In this document: positions 19,601-64,000 of the stretch, piece by piece
Position numbering within the stretch: position 1 is the stretch's first letter
How the letters are laid out: each line of letters opens with the position of its first letter
Assembly (NCBI RefSeq): GCF_037975245.1
Contig: NC_092565.1
Span: 8,588,999 to 8,652,998, forward strand
DNA: 64,000 nt
Direction of reading: 5' to 3'
DNA from: Apostichopus japonicus
Taxonomy: Eukaryota > Echinodermata > Holothuroidea > Aspidochirotida > Stichopodidae
Notes under the pieces: generated by a model
What the model was told of the DNA's origin: nothing
Databases searched by the model: none
The model's input: only the letters and a program-made list of their open reading frames with translations
Translations under genes and position numbers: made by a program

Positions 19601-22600
19601 ATATTGAACTATAGGGTCATAAAGAAAGGAACCACCCAGGGGACACTCTAGGCAGAGAGCTTTACCATCTAGAACAACTGTTCATATGAAATCCATCGAT
19701 TGCGGTCCGGTCATTTTTTAAGTCCAAGGGTAATTTTTTCAAGTCTTCACAGCCAAGAGTATCCGTCAGCAAGGGATATCACATAAAACCATCTATTGGT
19801 GTTGTATTACCTTTGAGCACCTATGAATATTGTATCCTTGATTTAGTATGCTTGTAGCATCTTGTAGAAGTAATAACAGTAGAATTGCAGCATTAGATTG
19901 AGACTAAATGTTGTGAAAAGCATTTGTGTAGATAAATGGAACAAGTGCACCTGATAATGGCCTTTTGAACTAAAAATGTACAGAACGTTTAGTAACTTGC
20001 ATAAAGTATATATGTCCTCTCTGTCTGAGGTTTAATTCTAGAATGATACAAATGGAAGAGAAAACCTTGAAAGTAACACTCAATGATATATGATGGTTTG
20101 TTTGGTGTTTGAACGCATGGAGAGCTGGAATACATCGTCCCGCAGTATTGAAATTACAACTTCCCACCTTATTGCATGGCCGTGAATTAGCCACTAACAT
20201 CGTGCATTAACTCAGCTACAGCCATGAGGGGGGAAGTTATCCTAATGCAAGCTGTTTCCCTCCCATTACCTGTTTATGAGAAGAGTGGTGGGAATTCTGT
20301 ATTTCTGTTAGGTGTGCACAAACTGTACCATCTTCCATTCCACTGACATCAGTGTACAAGTAGCTTTCTAAGATACCCAGTGTGCGGTGGAAGTTTGGAA
20401 TTTTGTAGTCATTTGTAAAGTACGAAATCACTAGATGGGAGCTAGCATGCCATTACACAGTTCTTTTGTTACAAGTTCATGTACTGCTTAAAGAAATAAA
20501 ATTGAACATTTTGATAGTATATTATAGTGTATGGAAAAAGGAAGCACTTTTCTCCAATCCTCATCTTGATAGCACACTCTGTTGCTGAGATTTTGAAATT
20601 TTAAAAATTTTGTCATTCGATTCAGTTTTAAAGTCTCAATATGTGTTTGCCAAATTTAAACTTTGACCTTTTCAGCTTACTGTCCTAAAAGCTCAGTGAA
20701 AATGACACTGTTTTATGCAATTTTCATACAATTTTAGTTATCTGTCATTAAACATTCTCAGCTGAATAAAATTTGCCAGATTTATTAACAAGTCCGTAGA
20801 TTCTACAAACTTCAACCAAAATTTGCAAGCCCCACCCAACAGATCATGCACCAATCAAATCTCTCTGTTTTGTTTACCACAGTCTTTTTCTACTTGTATA
20901 TCTCCCTAGTTATTTTGCTCTACTTGTATATCTCCCTAGTTATTTTGTTCTACTTGTATCTCTCCCTAGTTATTTTGCTCTACTCGTATCTCTCCCTAGT
21001 TATTTTGTTCTGCTCGTATCTCTCCCTAGTTATTTTGTTCTACTGGTATCTCTCCCTAGTTATTTTGTTCTACTCGTATCTCTCCCTAGTTATTTTGTGA
21101 AATACTCGTATCTCTCCCTAGTTATTTTGTTCTACTGGTATCTCTCCCTAGTTATTTTGTTCTACTGGTATCTCTCCCTAGTTATTTTGCTCTACTCGTA
21201 TCTCTCCCTAGTTATTTTGTTCTGCTCGTATCTCTCCCTAGTTATTTTGTTCTACTGGTATCTCTCCCTAGTTATTTTGTTCTACTCGTATCTCTCCCTA
21301 GTTATTTTGTTCTACTTGTATATCTCCCTAGTTATTTTGTTCTACTTGTATATCTCCCTAGTTATTTTGTGAACTACTCGTATCTCTCCCTAGATATTTT
21401 GTTCTACATCGTATCTCTCCCTAGTTATTTTGTTCTACTCGTATCTCTCCCTAGTTATTTTGTTCTACTTGTATATCTCCCTAGTTATTTTGTGAACTAC
21501 TTGTATCTCTCCCTAGTTATTTTGTTCTACTCGTATATCTCCCTAGTTATTTTGTTCTACTCGTATCTCTCCCTAGTTATTTTGTGAACTACTCGTATCT
21601 CTCCCTAGTTATTTTGTGAACTACTCGTATCTCTCCCTAGTTATTTTGTTCTACTTGTATATCTCCCTAGTTATTTTGTTCTACTCGTATCTCTCCCTAG
21701 TTATTTTGTTCTACTTGTATATCTCCCTAGTTATTTTGTTCTAGTCTTTTCTCTCCCTAGTTATTTTGTTCTACTTGTATCTCTCCCTAGTTATTTTGTT
21801 CTACTCGTATCTCTCCCTAGTTATTTTGTGCTGCTTTCACCCTACAGTATAGCTGTAGATTCCTATGCAGTACTGTGGTACATACAAAGATTGATACTTC
21901 CTCTAGCAGTCCATTGCTGACGTCACACAGTATAACTATTACTCCTTGTACATGGCAGGTTGTGAAAGGTTAATTATATCAAATTTAATAGATAAACCTG
22001 TTGATGTGTAACTTCCATACGAGGATGTGCACATATTAATAACCAGGAGCGTGCAATACTATCATGGTAGCATTGTCTTATCACTAAAAAACGTGTAAAC
22101 ACAAAGTACTGGGAGATAGTAGAATACTATCAAATGTTTGATCTGTATCAGAGTCACTTATAAAGACATACAGCTTCAACTATGCATCATTCTTAGCAAA
22201 TGATACGTGTAATTGGACATGTATCTGTCCGTCCGTCTGTAAGTTGATTAGTACACCGACTGTAATTAACAGGCTTAATCCAGAAAACAGAAAAATTCTT
22301 CCAAACACAAAGTCATCATGTAGGAAAAAAGTATTCACTAATTCACTAAACTAAACTGACGCAAATGAAGAATTCTTAAGTTTATAAAAAAAAAAATCAA
22401 AATACAACTGCGACCAAATTGTTTAGTTACCACTTGATGATGTCAGGGAGGTTGCTCATACAAGCATAGTTTTCTGCTGGCAACTGGCAGACAAATAAAG
22501 TTGGAAATATTGAAAGATGTACCCATGTACCTATAATTTTAATAAAACTCAATTAAGTTGCCTTCTGAAGCAGCTTTGTGTGCTAGTGTATGTTTAACAT

Positions 22601-48400: not shown

Positions 48401-51400
48401 CAGTATTGGTGATGGGACTTAAACACCAATGTGATTATCAACCCACATTAGGAGTGGTTATCTCATTATTGATGATAGAACTTAAACACCAATGTGTTTA
48501 TCAACCTACAGTAGGAGTGGTTATCTCATTATTGATGATAGAACATCACAATATAGGTAAATATGTTTATCAACCCACAGTAGGGTTATCACAATATTGA
48601 TGATAGAACTTAAACACCAATGTGTTTATCAACCTATTGTAGGAGTGGTTATCTCATTGATGATAGAACTTAAACACCAATGTGATTATCAACCCACATT
48701 AGGAGTGATTATCTCATTATTGATGATAGAACTTAAACACCAATGTGTTTATCAACCTACAGTGGGAGTGGTTATCTCATTATTGATGATAGAACATCAC
48801 AATATAGGTAAATATGTTTATCAACCCACAGTAGGGGTGGTTATCACAATATTGATGATAGAACTTAAACACCAATGTGTTTATCAACCTATTGTAGGAG
48901 TGGTTATCTCATTATTGATGATAGAACTTAAACACCAATGTGTTTATCAACCCACATTATGACTGGTCATCTCATTATTGATGATAGAACTTACACAACA
49001 ATGTGTTTATCAATCTCAAATTAGGAGTAGCTATCTCATTATTGGTGATAGAACATCACAATATAGGTAAATATGTTTACCCACAGTAGGAGTGCATATC
49101 TCATTATTGATGATAGAACTTAAGCATCAATGTGTTTATCAACCTACATTAGGTGTGGCTATCTCATTACTGTTTGTAGAACATCACAATATAGGTAGAG
49201 TAGTTGTGTTTATCAACCTCCAATAGCAGTATCCTTAGGTTCACACAAGTCCAGGGTATGTTCCCAATTTATTTCATCATCTGAAGATATTTGCAAAGAT
49301 AATTCAAATTCCCAAATACATGTACTCTTTAAGTTATGCATTTTGTCTCACAGGTTTGTAGGGTTTGTGAAACCAAGAAGTGAACCATGATAGGCTAAAA
49401 ATGAATTTGTTTCTGCTGGTAGCATACTAGCCACTGCAGCGAAATATCAGATCAGATCTAACATGCAGTCCTTCCTCACCTCAGAACAATGTGTGGCTCA
49501 GCCATTTATCTCCAATAGTGCAATCACTAGTAAATCAGTTTGGACTGACTGACCATCTGGAGGTTCCATTTTTTGCTAAATGTTTCAAGGAATTGATTCC
49601 TCTTAGGTAGATTGTTTGCAGAGGCTAATTGAAGTTTTAATGGGGTTTGGAAAACAGAATCAGTTGAAAAGCAAGTTTTTTTAATGGAATAGAAATGGAA
49701 ATCAGGTGAATCTAATCCTAGTTTTATTTAAAGTGATCCTAGGAGACATCATGATTCTGTTGTTTTCCACCTTTTAAGTTGAATGGACATACTTTGTATA
49801 CAGTGTTATCTTGTAAAAGTACTGGTATAGCTGTTACCCATAGACCTGGCTTTGAAACCAGAAAAAAAAATTCTACAAGCCATAAAGGCAAGTAGCTGTA
49901 TTGAATTGCTAAATTAACATCAACTTTACATATGTATGTATATTTATATTTTTTAAATTGTCGGAGCAAACAGAGTTACAGAGTAAAGTAACCTTTTCGC
50001 ATTTTTGCATCTCGGTAGACGCCAAGACCCCCCCCAAAGCCCATTACCAAGCCCAAGCCAAATGATATCAAACCAATGACATTGCCCAAGGCCACAAAAC
50101 CCCAAGTGCCTGTAAAGGTAAGTGTCATCATTCTGTGACCTGATTTATAGTTTTCTTTTATGTCTCTTTGTTGGAAAATGCTTTGTTCCAGGTTAAGGTG
50201 CATACTAACCCATCATACTGAAGTATGTCTTTGTGAAAGGTTCCCCCTCAGCATAACTTAATATGATGCCATTATGCATTCCTTTGGATTCAAAGTCTAA
50301 GATTTACAATGGACAAATACCAGATTGAATTAAGGTCAAGTAAGGAGAAGTGGTAAATAGTGCAAATAAGGTTTGAATTAGCAAACAACTTTGAGCAGAG
50401 GAAATATAACTTACCATAAAGCTTTGTATATCCAGGCATCAAGATAACTCCAAACCCATTCAACACTACTGTGGTGGTGGCGCTACGTAACAATGATTTA
50501 GCATTGTATATTGTGCAGAGGATTCAGCATTGGGAATATCATCTTTAAATTGTTTCATTTGCTCTAGTTTAGTAGTCCCGGCTTGTGGATATTTTAATTG
50601 GTATTATGACAAATGCCTACAGCAATTACCCTCCCCAATATTAAAAAGGAACCCCAGGGTGTATGTGTCACAGAACATGATTGTAGTGTTCTGTAGTGTG
50701 TATGTGTCACAGCACCTGATTGTACTGTTTTGTAGTGTGTGTGTGTCACAGAATGTGATTGTACTGTTCTGTAATTGGGGTGTGTGTGTGTGTGTCACAG
50801 CATGTGATTGTAGTGTGTGTGTGTCACAGAACATGGTTGTACTGTGCTATATGGAGAGTATGTGTCACAGAACATGATTGCAGTGTTCTGTAGTGTGCAT
50901 TGTGTCACAGAACGTGATTGTACTGTGCTATTGGGTGTATGTGTCACAGAACGTGATTTTAGTGTTCTGTAGTGTGTTTGTGTCATGGAACATGATTGTT
51001 CTGTAGTGTGTGTGTCACAGCAAATGATTGTACTGTTCTGCAGTTTGTGTGTGTGTGTCACAGCAAATGATTGTAGTGTGTATGTGTCACAGAACATGAT
51101 TGTAGTGTTCTGTAGTGTATGTGTCACAGAACATGATTGTAGTGTTTTGTATTGTGAATGTGTCACAGAACATGATTGTAGTGTTCTGTAGTGTGTATGT
51201 GTCACAGAACATGATTGTAGTGTTCTGTAGTGTGTATGTGTAACAGAACATGATTGTAGTGTTCTGTAGTGTGTATGTGTAACAGAACATGATTGTAGTG
51301 TTCTATAGTGTGTATGTGTCACAGAACATGATTGTAGTGTTCTGTAGTGTGTATGTGTCACAGAACATGATTGTAGTGTTCTGTAGTGTGTATGTGTCAC

Positions 51401-54400
51401 AGAACATGATTGTAGTGTTCTGTAGTGTGTATGTGTAACAGAACATGATTGTAGTGTTCTGTAGTGTGTATGTGTAACAGAACATGATTGTAGTGTTCTA
51501 TAGTGTGTATGTGTCACAGAACATGATTGTAGTGTTCTGTAGTGTGTATGTGTAACAGAACATGATTGTAGTGTTCTGTAGTGTGTATGTGCCACAGAAC
51601 ATGATTGTAGTGTTCTGTAGTGTGTATGTGCCACAGAACATGATTGTAATGTTCTGGAGTGTGTTTGTGTCACAGAACCTGATTGTAATGTTCTGTAGTG
51701 TGTATGTGCCACAGAACATGATTGTAATGTTCTGGAGTGTGTGTCACAGAACCTGATTGTAATGTTCTGTAGTGTGTATGTGTCACAGAACATGATTTTA
51801 ATGTTCTGTAGTGTGTTTGTGTCACAGAACATGATTGTAGTGTTCTGTAGAATACTTCATCTATTTTGCAGTTGAAATCATTTTTTGACAGCTGACTGTC
51901 AATGAGCTGTACAAAGTAACATAGATGTACATAAGTTGATGGGTTATGATTGTATGGGATGACTTCATTTTGTAGTACTGTACGCAAAGCATGTAACCGT
52001 ATTGAGATCGTGTCAACAACAGTAGGTTTACAACTTCTACAGGGATTTAGCCATGTCTCAAACTGGACATTGTCCAAAATGAGATGACATGTAATGATGA
52101 GTCACTAGTCATGTGACTATGAGTTTAATTGCCTTATAGCTTACAGCACCTGATTTACTGTTAACCTTTTTTAAATTGTAGGTTGCAACGACCCAGTCAA
52201 GATTCACACATTTTTTATCTGGTGATGGACACATAATACTGTACAGTTTTTCTCAATCTAATTATTTTGTTTTTCTCTTAATTTTAATTTGTTTATAGGC
52301 GAAAAGAAACCTATTGCCAGAGAGTGCTGTTCTGAAAATAAGTGATAAAGTGTATTCTGAAAGGTGAGTCTGTTCATGTGAAGATTTAGTCTTAATATAT
52401 ATATATATATATAAATATATCTATATATATATATATATATATTAATATGTGTGTATGTGTGTGTGTGTGTATGTATGTTTATATATATATATATATATTT
52501 ATATGTAAATATACGTCGAACGTACGTACGTAAGTTTGGTTGATTGTCTATCTTTGCGCAGAGCCAAGTATAGATGAGAATTACTTGAGACTAGTGGAAC
52601 ACTAGTAGTTGTTAGTTTCACGTAATTGAGCGATCATCAGACAACTGTTGTCTGGTGATCGCTCAATTCTTTGAAAGTGTTCCACTAGTCTCAACTAATT
52701 CTCATATCAGATATATGAAGGTTCAACAAGTGTTTAAATAAATTGATTATTAGTGACTGCAGCATTATGTTGGACTTTGTACCCTTTGTACTCCATGGAT
52801 GAAAGATCAATGTCAGCAATGTAAATACACTAACAAAACAATTAAAACATAAATGAAATGTAAGGAAGAGACTGCATTTATTTACTATGCAAATGGCTAT
52901 GCATATTCATATATTTAACAGGTACATTTCTGCCTTTGGTTAAGTCAGAGTGTAATATTTGTGTATCAATGACATCCCCCCTACCCTCCCCCCCCCTCCA
53001 CCCCAACAGATGACTAATTGTTTATTGATCTTTCTTTTGTTTGCAGTCTTCTTCGAAAGCATAACTTGAATGGGATGTACCTACTGAGGGGAAGTGCTAG
53101 GGATATTACAAAGCAGGTACCGGATACTCATCATTTCCTGGTGTATCAATACAAAAACGAATAAATGTTTAGTAGAAAATAGTTTCTGTATTTTATCCAG
53201 ACAATGACCTGGATATATTAATGTAGCTAGCTTAGACTAGCAAGGCTCTGATATTCATCCTTATACAAAATTCTGTTGTCATGGGAAAACCAAAGAGTGC
53301 ATTTCCATGTTAGAATTTTCATGAAAGACTCCCAGAAGGAATAAAGGTCACTAAAATCCAAGGTAAAAATTGTTTTTAATGGCAAATTAGCATTTTTCTT
53401 TTGACTCTTTTTAACTGCCACAATCGTCTAGCTACTAACAAGGCCATTGTCTCCATTCTTGACTATCACAGTCCCCACTAAGAGTGGCCCTCTGTAGATG
53501 TATAAGGAACTCAATTGATGAACCTTTTTGTTTGGTTATTATTTAGAATGATGAAGTTCAATTAATGACTTTATTTTACTAGAGGTAGCCTTGTATTGGT
53601 TTATTATTACTGTTGTACATGTTTGGTTTTTGCAGGTCATTATGGTTTGGGATGAGCAAGCGGATAAGAGTAAGCATTACACAATATTCGGAGACCAGGT
53701 GAGTCGATATTTGGTTGTCAGTCAATGTAGCTAAAATGCCAAAATGTTTATCCTACTTCCACACATTGCAAACATATAGGCTCATTGTGTCTAGAGAACT
53801 CTGATAGGCCATGTTTTGGATCTGTGGTTACCATCGTCAGGTCATCAAAAAAGATTGTTTATTAAGGTCCTTGAAGTGTCCAGTCCAAACCTAATTATAA
53901 CTCTAATGGTACACCTCCAGTTAGTACTCATCATAATCAACTCCATCCAGTCCTCAAACTAGTTAAGACTCAGCCTGGATGCAAACATACATGATATTTT
54001 CATGCACCACCCCCCCCCCACCCCCTCCTCCTGCCACTCCCCCTTTACTTTTTTTGCAAAATCTCATGAAGAGCAGATATCCTTCCCCTGTGTCTTAACG
54101 GAATGTAAAGTGTGGCAAGAAATTAAGAATCCTTGTAAATTTGTGGAAAAAAATGGTCAAGGACCAAAGCATTACCATCTCCCCACCCCCCACACCTCAT
54201 CAGGTCATTGCTTCAAACCAGGGTCCCTACGTGTGTGACAACTTTCATGTTGTTGATATTATTTGTCCAGTGTGTTCCAACACACAATACATAGGTCAAA
54301 CTCATCTTTCACGTTTCATTTACAACATACGTTTTCACCTCATAAAATGCACATTTCCAGTGGCTGAGCTTTTTAAATTTCCTTGCCTAAGGTTAGACTC

Positions 54401-60922: not shown

Positions 60923-62820
60923 CTGAATTAAAATATAACATGAAATCGATTGACTATGACTGACTATATATCTTGGTGTTTGACTATACTCCGGGTGTTT
61001 GAGTGAATAAGTATTATGCATTGTAAAATATTTATTGTCCCACGTCCAGCCCCTATATAGTGTAGAAAATACGTTGCCAGAAGCAATTCAAATTAGGGTA
61101 ATCACTTTGAGTCGACTTACCTCTGTATTATAGCCAAAGACGGTGCCTGTGTGAATGACATCCACAAATCGAGCGTCCGATTTCTCAAGCAGACATCCGG
61201 TTTGTGAGAAACCCTCATATCCAGGCCCTGCTGGATCTAATCCTATAACAACGATATGTCAATGAAACAGTCAATCATTCGATTAATTCACCAGTAATGA
61301 TGGAAAACATGCAAGTAAGCCCACATGCTAGCAGGCTTAGCTGGTTATGTAATAAATGAATATCTATCTAATGATCCTCCAGCTTACCTGTTATTCTACC
61401 GTATACACCCGAGAGATATTCGCCTGCATACCCAGCTGTATGAGCGCCCAGGCTATGTCCTATTAGATGCATACTAGAATAAGAAGAGCCAGCCAACGAG
61501 ACCAGTTTCTTAGACAGTTCTCCAATTTGACGACCCACGACCCTCGTATTCTGACGAGCGATGGCATAGCTGTGAGGTACAGACGTCACATCAGCTATTA
61601 TTCTGTGAAGATCGATCAAATCCGCTCCATCGCCCCAATCTACCAGGATGACGTTGAAATTCCCCTACACGGACAGCAGCGAGGTAGAAAAGGTGAGAGA
61701 ATGGAACAAATATTGATATCCTTATTTAAATTGAGCAACTTACCAACGTGCGTGTGATCTGTCATAGATGGTCCCGCCAATACGCCCACCCCCTCGTTCC
61801 TAACACACACACACGCACCCAAACCTGAACAGAATCTCTACTTTGTTCTGATAACAACTCTTGTGACTTCAGACTCTGAAACAGACACAGACTTTGTGAA
61901 GAGTACTCGTCATACAGGTACAGAGAAATGTAGTTTTTACATACTTTTTACATACCTTTTTACATACTGATTAGGACCCGGTACTTTTTAATACAGGTAC
62001 TTTTTAAGAAAAGTCACCAAGGAAAGAACCTGGGCACGAAAACCAAACTACCAAACGACTGATCCGCTCTCAACCCCAGTCCCCTTGCATCGGGACTGTG
62101 ACTGTGTGATCATCGTCGGGTGTGCATCACCATTCCCCTCGAAAGGGAACAGATACTACACATGATCTTAGCCAAAAGGCCGAGAAGCGACCCGTCATTC
62201 AGGTACAGAGAATTGTAGTTTTTACATAGTTTTTTTTTTTTTTATAAATAAAGAGATAATCATATATGTTGTGATCGTAGCGTAGGTTTGATTTTTTCTT
62301 AGTAAAGTCTCTCAGTGGTATAGTATAATCTGGCTAAACGTAACAATGGAACCCAGTTTTTGTACATCTCCAGTGTAATATCCGAAATGTCAGTACCTAT
62401 AATCGTCATATCGATTGTGCACAAAAAATGTAACATCAGATACTGTGTTTTCAACAAGCAATAAGTATTATTACTCACAATAGAGAGCAGCGCGTCCTTC
62501 ATTTCCAAGAATTTACTCTGCATGGCGTTACCATTGAGTCCATGGATGATAAACTTGGTTGGTCTGTTACCTCTGAAGTTAGAGTTGCGGATGCTCGAAA
62601 CGTCCGACAAACTCAACTCTTGACGGGTGTCTGGCAGCTCAGGGGTGTAAAGGAAAAATCTAGTGTTGATCTGCTCGGGTGTCTCTGGCGCGCATCCTTG
62701 GTGGCAAGAAAGTTCATCTGTAAAGCAACCTATAGACGGAAAACACATCGAGATTGCTGTCCCTAAAAAGAAAAAGAAAAAATAAACATTAACCGCAATA
62801 CTAGAATAAGAGGACACCAT
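60590..62820 (-). CDS. secreted lipase, pancreatic-lipase superfamily, 4 exons, 357 aa
   Basis: Extracellular serine ester hydrolase (triglyceride or phospholipid; the exact substrate is not fixed by sequence). Exons 62820-62479, 61664-61388, 61242-61121 and 60922-60590 join in phase to 358 codons including the stop. Residues 1-24 form a signal peptide (polar start, then VNVYFFFFFLGTAIS). The mature part opens CFPSIGCFTDE and continues NTRFFLYTPE, KFIIHGLNGN and NVILVDWGDG. Triad: Ser 185 in GHSLG, Asp 209 in GLDPAGP, His 273 in CYHLR. The segment between Cys 264 and Cys 271 (lid position) has only six residues, and there is no C-terminal PLAT domain, unlike vertebrate pancreatic lipase (about 465 aa). 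A short lid is typical of the phospholipase A1 branch. The ATG at 62820 gives a full signal peptide without a further exon; an alternative is an acceptor at 62763 with an unseen first exon. Confidence 0.87.
61121..61242 (-). CDS. lipase exon 3, catalytic aspartate
   Basis: Acceptor TGTTATAG, donor GTAAGT. Encodes GLDPAGPGYEG, then DARFVDVIHT, the standard post-Asp block of the family. Confidence 0.93.
61388..61664 (-). CDS. lipase exon 2, nucleophile exon
   Basis: Begins GNFNVILVDWGDG after a GTGTAG acceptor and ends YGRIT plus one base at GTAAGC. Contains MHLIGHSLGAHTAGYAG with the nucleophilic serine. Confidence 0.93.
61909..62229 (-). mobile_element. U2-snRNA-headed retroposon (SINE-like) with target-site duplication
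   Basis: On the minus strand the element starts at 62191 with about 45 nt almost identical to the 5' end of U2 snRNA (TCGCTTCTCGGCCTTTTGGC, TAAGATCA, GTGTAGTATCTGTTC). It then switches at 62146 to an unrelated body of about 150 bp and ends in an A-rich tail of TATGTAAAAAG repeats. A roughly 37-bp direct repeat flanks it (61909-61945 and 62193-62229, about three differences), as expected for a target-site duplication. It is not a working U2 gene, because stem II, the Sm site and the 3' half are absent. It lies in lipase intron 1, same strand. Confidence 0.75.
62147..62191 (-). pseudogene. U2 snRNA 5'-domain fragment
   Basis: Covers stem I and the branch-point-recognition region (GTGTAGTA) of U2, with two differences from the consensus I remember. 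The similarity stops abruptly where stem IIa should begin. It forms the head of the SINE-like element. Confidence 0.85.
62479..62820 (-). CDS. lipase exon 1, signal peptide and N-terminal strands
   Basis: 114 codons, donor GTGAGT. The frame stays open from ATG 62820 through a run of five Phe codons into the conserved GCF, NTRFFLYT and KFIIHG motifs. The TTTTTAG before GGACAG at 62762 resembles an acceptor, so the first 19 residues are slightly uncertain. Confidence 0.82.
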
Positions 62821-64000
62821 GCAGATCACATTAAAATGACGGATTGGTATAGGCCTATATGTGTTGTGTTGCTCAGTCGCACAAGTTTTTTGTCATTGAG
62901 GTTGTGTTACCATACATACGCCACCAACTTACGGAGTCCCTTAGGAGCATTCCAATTACAAGTATATGTTATATTACAATTAATATGAAAAGGTTCATCG
63001 ATTGGCTATATGTAGCCACAAATCGGAAGAGACCCCAAAATACTAAATGACAATTACAGTAAGAATGAATAATGAATATACAGAATGAAAAAATACGGTA
63101 CAATATAGAATATAGTCATGACGTCAGCACCCAAAAAGAGTTTAACTTCGTAACTGGGCATGACCTTGAGTTTGACCTTGAAAAGCACAGGTATTATTTA
63201 TGGACATAACATCCCCCTCCCAGGTTTATGTTCTTTGCAGATTGCGGGCGTTGGGGGGGGGGGCGTTTTGCTCAGATTATGTCCCTTGTTCATCTGGGTC
63301 CTACTTTAATAAAACTAATGGTCAAACACAAACAAGAAATCACAATACTTAAACTACTTTTTCAAGTATAGTTAAAAGGCCGTGGGCGCCTATTTTATAT
63401 AGTGACAGACATTTATTGGATAAAGTAACTTAACACTTGTGTGTTTGGTGGAGTCCTGTTTACAGGAAGTACATACATTTAATTCAAATCCAGGTATTAA
63501 CGATTTTATTAAAACATGTTTTTGCAACCTGATATATACTCCTACGGTGTTAGGATAACCAGCATAAATGGTATCGGTGTCTCCCTTTATTGGTGTATTC
63601 TTGTTATCTTTTATAGTTTTTCTTACATCTATATCGGTCTGTCAAGGTTTGTGACAAGTTATTAGCATTCAATCATGCCTGGATCTTTTTTTCTCGAAAA
63701 ATGATACAAACACATGTATAAAAAAACCCAAAATAACGCTAAAAGCAATTTAAAGAAAAATTAACTTGGAACTTGTCAATTTTCGACACTTTTCAACGCT
63801 GGAATTGCCAAAAAATATTGCTGTAAATTTGTGTGAATGGTCAAGTTTAGTTTGAAGTGGTTAAGAAAGAGTATGCGGTACAAAGTTATAAAGATCATAA
63901 TTTTTTAATTTTTTTTTATGTCATTAAATACTGATCTGAAAATTGTCTAACCTAATTTATATACCTATACCTTATATATACCTACTTTATATATGTTTTA
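62821..64000. other. unassigned flank upstream of the lipase
   Basis: Would contain the lipase promoter. AT-rich, with a G run near 63254. No gene, TATA box or repeat array that I can support. Confidence 0.5.

Follow-up and report, generated by a model that had tools for sequence, protein, structure and literature searches.

A SINE with a U2 snRNA head in the Apostichopus japonicus genome, with copies inside U2 genes

The element and the family it belongs to

In a 64,000-nucleotide stretch of the Apostichopus japonicus genome (contig NC_092565.1, hereafter the window), three open-reading frames with lipase domains (Pfam PF00151; 61088-61258, 61368-61664 and 62299-62892) mark a minus-strand gene at 61088-62892, and between them, in an intron and in the orientation of the gene, lies a 192-nt element which reads on the minus strand from 62190 to 61999. 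Its head (62147-62190) is U2 snRNA nt 2-45, identified by Rfam (RF00004, 50.1 bits, E 5.6e-07, minus strand) and 44/44 identical to U2 genes in the tandem array on contig C16 of the same genome, including the AUCAUGUG variant which differs from the Rfam consensus AUCAAGUG. After U2 nt 45 (...GTATCTGTTC followed by CC) the sequence switches to a non-U2 body (61999-62146), shared by the full-length copies compared and ending in CTTAAAAAGT. A possible 3' hairpin, CCCAGG-TTCTTT-CCTTGG, lies at 62017-62034 (CCTGGG in most copies aligned); it was predicted for the 3' end of the family, but only partly (3 pairs) in the fold of a whole copy. The head also contains, at 62153-62154, a copy of the U2 insertion site described below (GTA/TCTG, U2 nt 38/39, where the slash marks the site), which is used for SINE-in-SINE insertion at other loci. 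Elsewhere in the window, at 20800-21587 and 50795-51856, are long minisatellite-like open frames (repeats of LPSYFVLLVS and of HTHYRTLQSCSVT).

The initial annotation had described a U2-headed, SINE-like retroposon at 61909-62229, with a clean U2 5' domain, an abrupt switch to a non-U2 body, an A-rich tail of TATGTAAAAAG units and a flanking direct repeat of ~37 bp, and this observation proved to be real, with three corrections. First, the element reads on the minus strand. Second, the 3' end of the family is CTTAAAAAGT, its tail being AAAAAGT rather than TATGTAAAAAG; the letters at 61950-61998 (ACCTGTATTAAAAAGTACCGGGTCCTAATCA plus TATGTAAAAAG units) are extra in this copy and absent from the 19 others aligned, although a repeated AAAAAGTACC tail also occurs at loci on contig C17. 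Third, the direct repeat is 45 bp at 91% identity, with its upstream copy at 62190-62234 and its downstream copy at 61905-61949, and a genome search with it (which skips simple repeats) found only these two places.

To determine whether the element is one of a family, we searched the genome (671,581,487 bases in 35 contigs) with short patterns, using reversed patterns as controls, which excluded chance for the family. The head-body junction TAAGATCATGTGTAGTATCTGTTCCC (up to 1 mismatch) occurs at 1,098 places (control 0), and the 28-nt tail (up to 1 mismatch) at 319, of which 82 are exact (control 0). We fetched 20 regions holding best-scoring copies and 40 of the 82 exact tail places (fetched loci are numbered with the prefix L). 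Of these 40, 39 carry the SINE body, 28 with a head by a fuzzy match and 11 with none or part of it, so that 5'-truncated copies are present, whilst the fortieth, L040, is a 30-nt tail fragment inside an unrelated repeat; the idea that the whole tail is the 3' end of a LINE was rejected on this evidence, as L040 is not a LINE. Full-length copies start at or within a few bases of U2 +1. The family consists of U2 snRNA nt 1-45, a ~150-nt non-U2 body and the 3' end CTTAAAAAGT. At ~195 nt, with no coding capacity and with many dispersed copies sharing their ends, it has the structure of a SINE. The published A. japonicus genome (PMC10344927) lists 159,644 bp as SINE, less than 1,098 copies of ~195 nt would occupy if full-length, so the family may not be wholly annotated there as SINE.

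An automatic search for target-site duplications (TSDs) on 59 loci found 32 at a score of 9 or more, against 0 of 289 mismatched flank pairs; the other 27 had shorter or no TSD by this measure. L009 (C5:8658000-8660600, about 5-8 kb beyond the end of the window) was left out, as it is a ~950-bp tandem duplication with a SINE copy in each unit and a third SINE between them. Of the 32, three (L047, L048 and L050) have related flanks on contig C11, and the hit in L058 belongs to a neighbouring inverted copy. The SINE copies of L044, L047, L048 and L050 (C11:13.48-14.25 Mb) share flanks which by eye resemble the 3' part of a dispersed LINE family (LINE D, below), perhaps a LINE carrying a SINE that has been copied. 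Among the 10 TSD-bearing loci not chosen by their tail, the duplicated target starts A[C/T] in 8 (in one, L013, one base further in), with p about 8e-06 from flank dinucleotides, an optimistic figure because the search may extend a TSD by chance; the other 40 loci were chosen for a tail ending GTACC and are biased towards AC. The junction is AAAAAGT followed by A[C/T].

The initial annotation had read the element as LINE-mediated retroposition of a chimeric RNA, had remarked that its direct repeat was longer than the usual LINE duplication, and had set as its test that many copies share head, body and tail with different flanking duplications. That reading is supported: the 1,098 junctions and the TSDs satisfy the test, and the 5'-truncated copies and the 3' junctions shared with, or like, those of LINEs (below) are in favour of LINE-mediated retroposition. 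The long direct repeat of the window copy is atypical, and a 45-bp TSD as a rule of the family was rejected, as 30 of the 32 TSDs found are 9-19 bp. It could be an unusually long TSD, which would start AT after AAAAAGT, or the SINE may have entered one half of an older local duplication with a shorter inner TSD (ACCTGAATGACGGGT, partly matched by ACCTGTAT) at CTGT/ACCTG; the letters allow both.

A further possibility, that these are chimeric U2 retropseudogenes made by RNA template switching by LINEs and not a family which propagates itself, is very unlikely. U2 pseudogenes and chimeric insertions occur in other animals, and L015 has a double head, as template switching would give, but this reading is contradicted by the shared subfamily changes in the body, alongside the same head-body junction in 1,098 places and the shared 3' end.

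SINEs and LINEs in the U2 array

Authentic U2 genes form a 645-bp tandem array on C16 (about 30.97-31.17 Mb), and at least four more lie on C15. The uninterrupted stretch of U2 nt 25-53 is found at 57 places in the array, one of which is the left half of a SINE-carrying gene (L078). The interrupted junction AAAAGTATCTGTTCTTTTCAGC (up to 1 mismatch) occurs at 24 places, 23 of them on C16 (control 0). In a further search (control 0), SINE tails precede GTATCTGTTCTT at 8 of 23 places: six in the C16 array, one on C20, and one on C5 inside another SINE. The six array copies come from a search for one junction in U2 (GT/ATCTG, U2 nt 37/38), and insertions at other sites in U2 genes would have escaped it. 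We read all six. L078 has a truncated SINE flanked on both sides by GTATCTGTTCTTTTCAGC and two full SINEs in register, each behind the same upstream sequence as ordinary U2 units; L080 has a third full SINE in register; L061 has an in-register SINE with a second SINE inserted at its own U2-derived site; and L079 has a truncated SINE behind a LINE B-like end, again with the duplication, which in the two truncated copies is 16-18 bp. The U2 upstream region is present in L061, L062, L078, L080 and L086 and was found in none of L001-L060 (up to 6 edits over 29 nt). The initial annotation would have been refuted by a single copy, or by a body belonging to a longer U2-like RNA gene with its own promoter, and the latter is partly true in an unexpected way, as six copies do sit in U2 genes, four of them in register behind the U2 upstream region. 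One in-register copy, at reverse-strand position 2793 of L078, is 190/190 identical to dispersed copies L033 and L060. L081 on C20 holds a SINE followed by U2 nt ~35-200 at 90% identity, as expected of a retrocopy of a read-through U2-SINE RNA, though no clear TSD was seen by eye. New insertions also recreate the target at their 3' junction, which may explain tandem SINE arrays such as L077 (C2:21947600-21949200), where about nine SINE copies or fragments each end in AAAAAGTATCC and successive copies follow TATCC.

Three LINE families in the array share this 3' junction, AAA(A) followed by GTATCTG. LINE A (ORF2 of 1162 aa; RVT_1, PF00078, and Exo_endo_phos, PF03372; best PDB match L1 ORF2p) lies in U2 genes, where upstream U2 ends at nt 25 and downstream U2 resumes at GTATCTG; LINEs B (51% identical to A over most of ORF2) and C (47%) lie in the same array, and five further C16 junctions are by eye LINE ends of these kinds. 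This is the site of the LINEs Keno and Utopia: U2 downstream of Utopia starts at nt 39 and the Keno 3' flank is identical (PMC4640811), whilst here GTA (nt 36-38) could belong to either element or target. Keno is an APE-type, Tx1-clade LINE of U2 genes, named from frogs, fish, lancelet and hydra (PMC4640811), and the insertion site of LINEs A, B and C, with the AP endonuclease and reverse transcriptase of family A, the one family scanned, leads us to call them Keno-like. Utopia, known from sea urchins and a starfish, with reptile families that make 20-bp TSDs (PMC4640811), uses the same U2 site but has a restriction-like endonuclease, and was rejected as the identity of family A, which has an AP-type endonuclease. 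A different LINE (961-aa ORF2 with Exo_endo_phos_2 and RVT_1) sits about 17 bp upstream of the U2 start in the array, in a duplicated 5.3-kb unit (L062, C16:31040200-31049200), and ORFs of the same length and score occur on other contigs.

LINE D (37-38% identical to A) is dispersed, with 3' ends at 99-100% identity in 40 of 42 scored matches. Of 20 D ends fetched, 17 continue AAAAAGC followed by AC, and six loci (L090, L098, L101, L102, L105 and L107) show a clear TSD of 11-19 bp at the 5' break, all starting AC. D resembles the SINE in its last bases and site choice, but the alignment of the two 3' ends is only borderline (p 0.05-0.08; 0.34 without the tail), and the SINE 3' end shows no significant similarity to LINEs A, B, C or a further family, E. 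A related poly(A)-tailed LINE family (47% identical to LINE A) ends just before tandem tRNA genes, tRNA-Gly(tcc) in L066 (C15:7599600-7600900) and tRNA-Leu in L068 (C13:14832400-14833600), with tandem repeats also following the LINE in L067 and L069, and is possibly a tRNA-gene-associated LINE; six same-scoring reverse-transcriptase ORFs (926 aa) at spacings of about 8.5-15 kb (C7:316612-373963) are perhaps LINEs in another tandem gene array.

Proposed transcription and spread of the SINE

A consensus scan of the SINE found no B box within 2 mismatches, an A-box-like stretch with one mismatch in the head (nt 18-28), and internal TTTT at nt 15 and 150 and TTTTT at nt 180; no complete internal Pol III promoter is recognisable. 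The promoter of U2 genes lies upstream of the transcribed region, so dispersed copies have none, and a copy in register in a U2 gene is placed behind it. We favour, with moderate confidence, a model in which the U2-resident copies are the source genes: inserted at the site used by the U2-targeting, Keno-like LINEs, they would be transcribed from the U2 promoter into an RNA which starts at U2 +1 and carries the U2 head, and LINE machinery would then reverse-transcribe it by target-primed reverse transcription, either back into U2 genes, making new sources, or to scattered sites starting A[C/T], where copies are probably silent. The analysis itself demonstrates the family with its structure and copy number, the TSDs and 5' truncation, the shared U2 site, the in-register copies behind the U2 upstream region, the identity of an array copy with dispersed copies, and one dispersed locus with SINE plus the rest of U2; transcription from the U2 promoter, for which there are no expression data, the LINE which acts at each step, and renewal of the head from U2 genes are our inferences. 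The array copies could be sinks rather than sources, as identity alone gives no direction.

Renewal of the head has only weak support. L112 and L115 carry U2 up to TTTTCAG before the body, as a head renewed from U2 would, but they were picked by a U2 pattern among over a thousand copies and may be mutants, and so are only suggestive. A constant head would also fit: among 43 full-length copies (the window copy included, near-duplicate L049 dropped and shorter copies left out), diagnostic sites number 0 of 41 in the head and 16 of 150 in the body (p 0.025). However, one deletion counts as four of these sites and shifts in a T run as several more; counted as 8-11 events, p is 0.12-0.21, and private changes do not differ (20/1763 and 98/5762, p 0.10). 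We therefore rest nothing on head constancy, and its weakening slightly lowered our confidence in the model and in the two-stage cycle described below, and slightly raised that in the conventional alternative.

That alternative is a SINE whose dispersed copies are transcribed from an internal Pol III promoter in the head, the insertions in U2 genes being dead-end by-products of a U2-like target. The small number of array copies (6, against 1,098 junctions) and the A-box-like stretch are in its favour, but it appears unlikely given the lack of a B box, the internal T runs, the external promoter of U2 genes and the array copies standing in register behind the U2 upstream region. It is also possible, though we hold it only tentatively, that one helper does everything, the Keno-like LINEs inserting the SINE both into U2 genes and, off target, elsewhere, without LINE D. 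The dispersed TSDs starting A[C/T], like the U2 site, and the junction shared by the three U2 LINE families fit this; against it, the 11 copies of LINEs A, B and C that were scored lie in the array, so their own RNA is not seen off target, and LINE D matches the SINE better at the very end (AAAAAG[C/T] followed by A), in site choice and in TSD length. A more far-reaching reading, which we consider somewhat less likely than not, is a SINE without its own promoter that lives by a two-stage cycle: it would insert site-specifically into U2 genes, be transcribed there by the Pol II snRNA promoter, renew its head from the gene it lands in, and spread with two different LINEs, a U2-specific one to make sources and a dispersed one to make copies.

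Relation to other snRNA-headed SINEs

SINEs with snRNA-derived heads are known as SINEU from crocodilians (Kojima 2015, doi 10.1093/gbe/evv100; PMC8010984) and are listed as a Repbase class (PMC4455052, PMC5753468). Their heads are reportedly U1 or U2, with a Tx1-clade LINE as the likely helper; the SINE here shares junctions and site choice with LINEs related to an L1-type ORF2, a resemblance that falls short of identifying its helper. The family described here has an snRNA head in an invertebrate host, which, as the initial annotation had anticipated, would extend the SINEU class to an invertebrate, and it has copies inside U2 genes, which are not known to have been described for SINEU. Literature searches showed no U2-headed SINE in an invertebrate and no SINE copies in U2 genes, in a collection without most subscription papers. 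Families with tRNA, 7SL and 5S heads are likewise short, non-autonomous, TSD-flanked and high in copy number, but carry an internal Pol III promoter.

SINEs are normally thought to need such a promoter. A U2 head brings none, so how snRNA-headed SINEs arise and are transcribed is a puzzle. Here the same element is found both dispersed and inside U2 transcription units that keep their upstream region, next to U2-inserted LINEs that use the same site. This gives a concrete, testable route to an snRNA head and would mean that a mobile element can use the U2 array as a promoter bank, at the cost of disrupting splicing-RNA genes.
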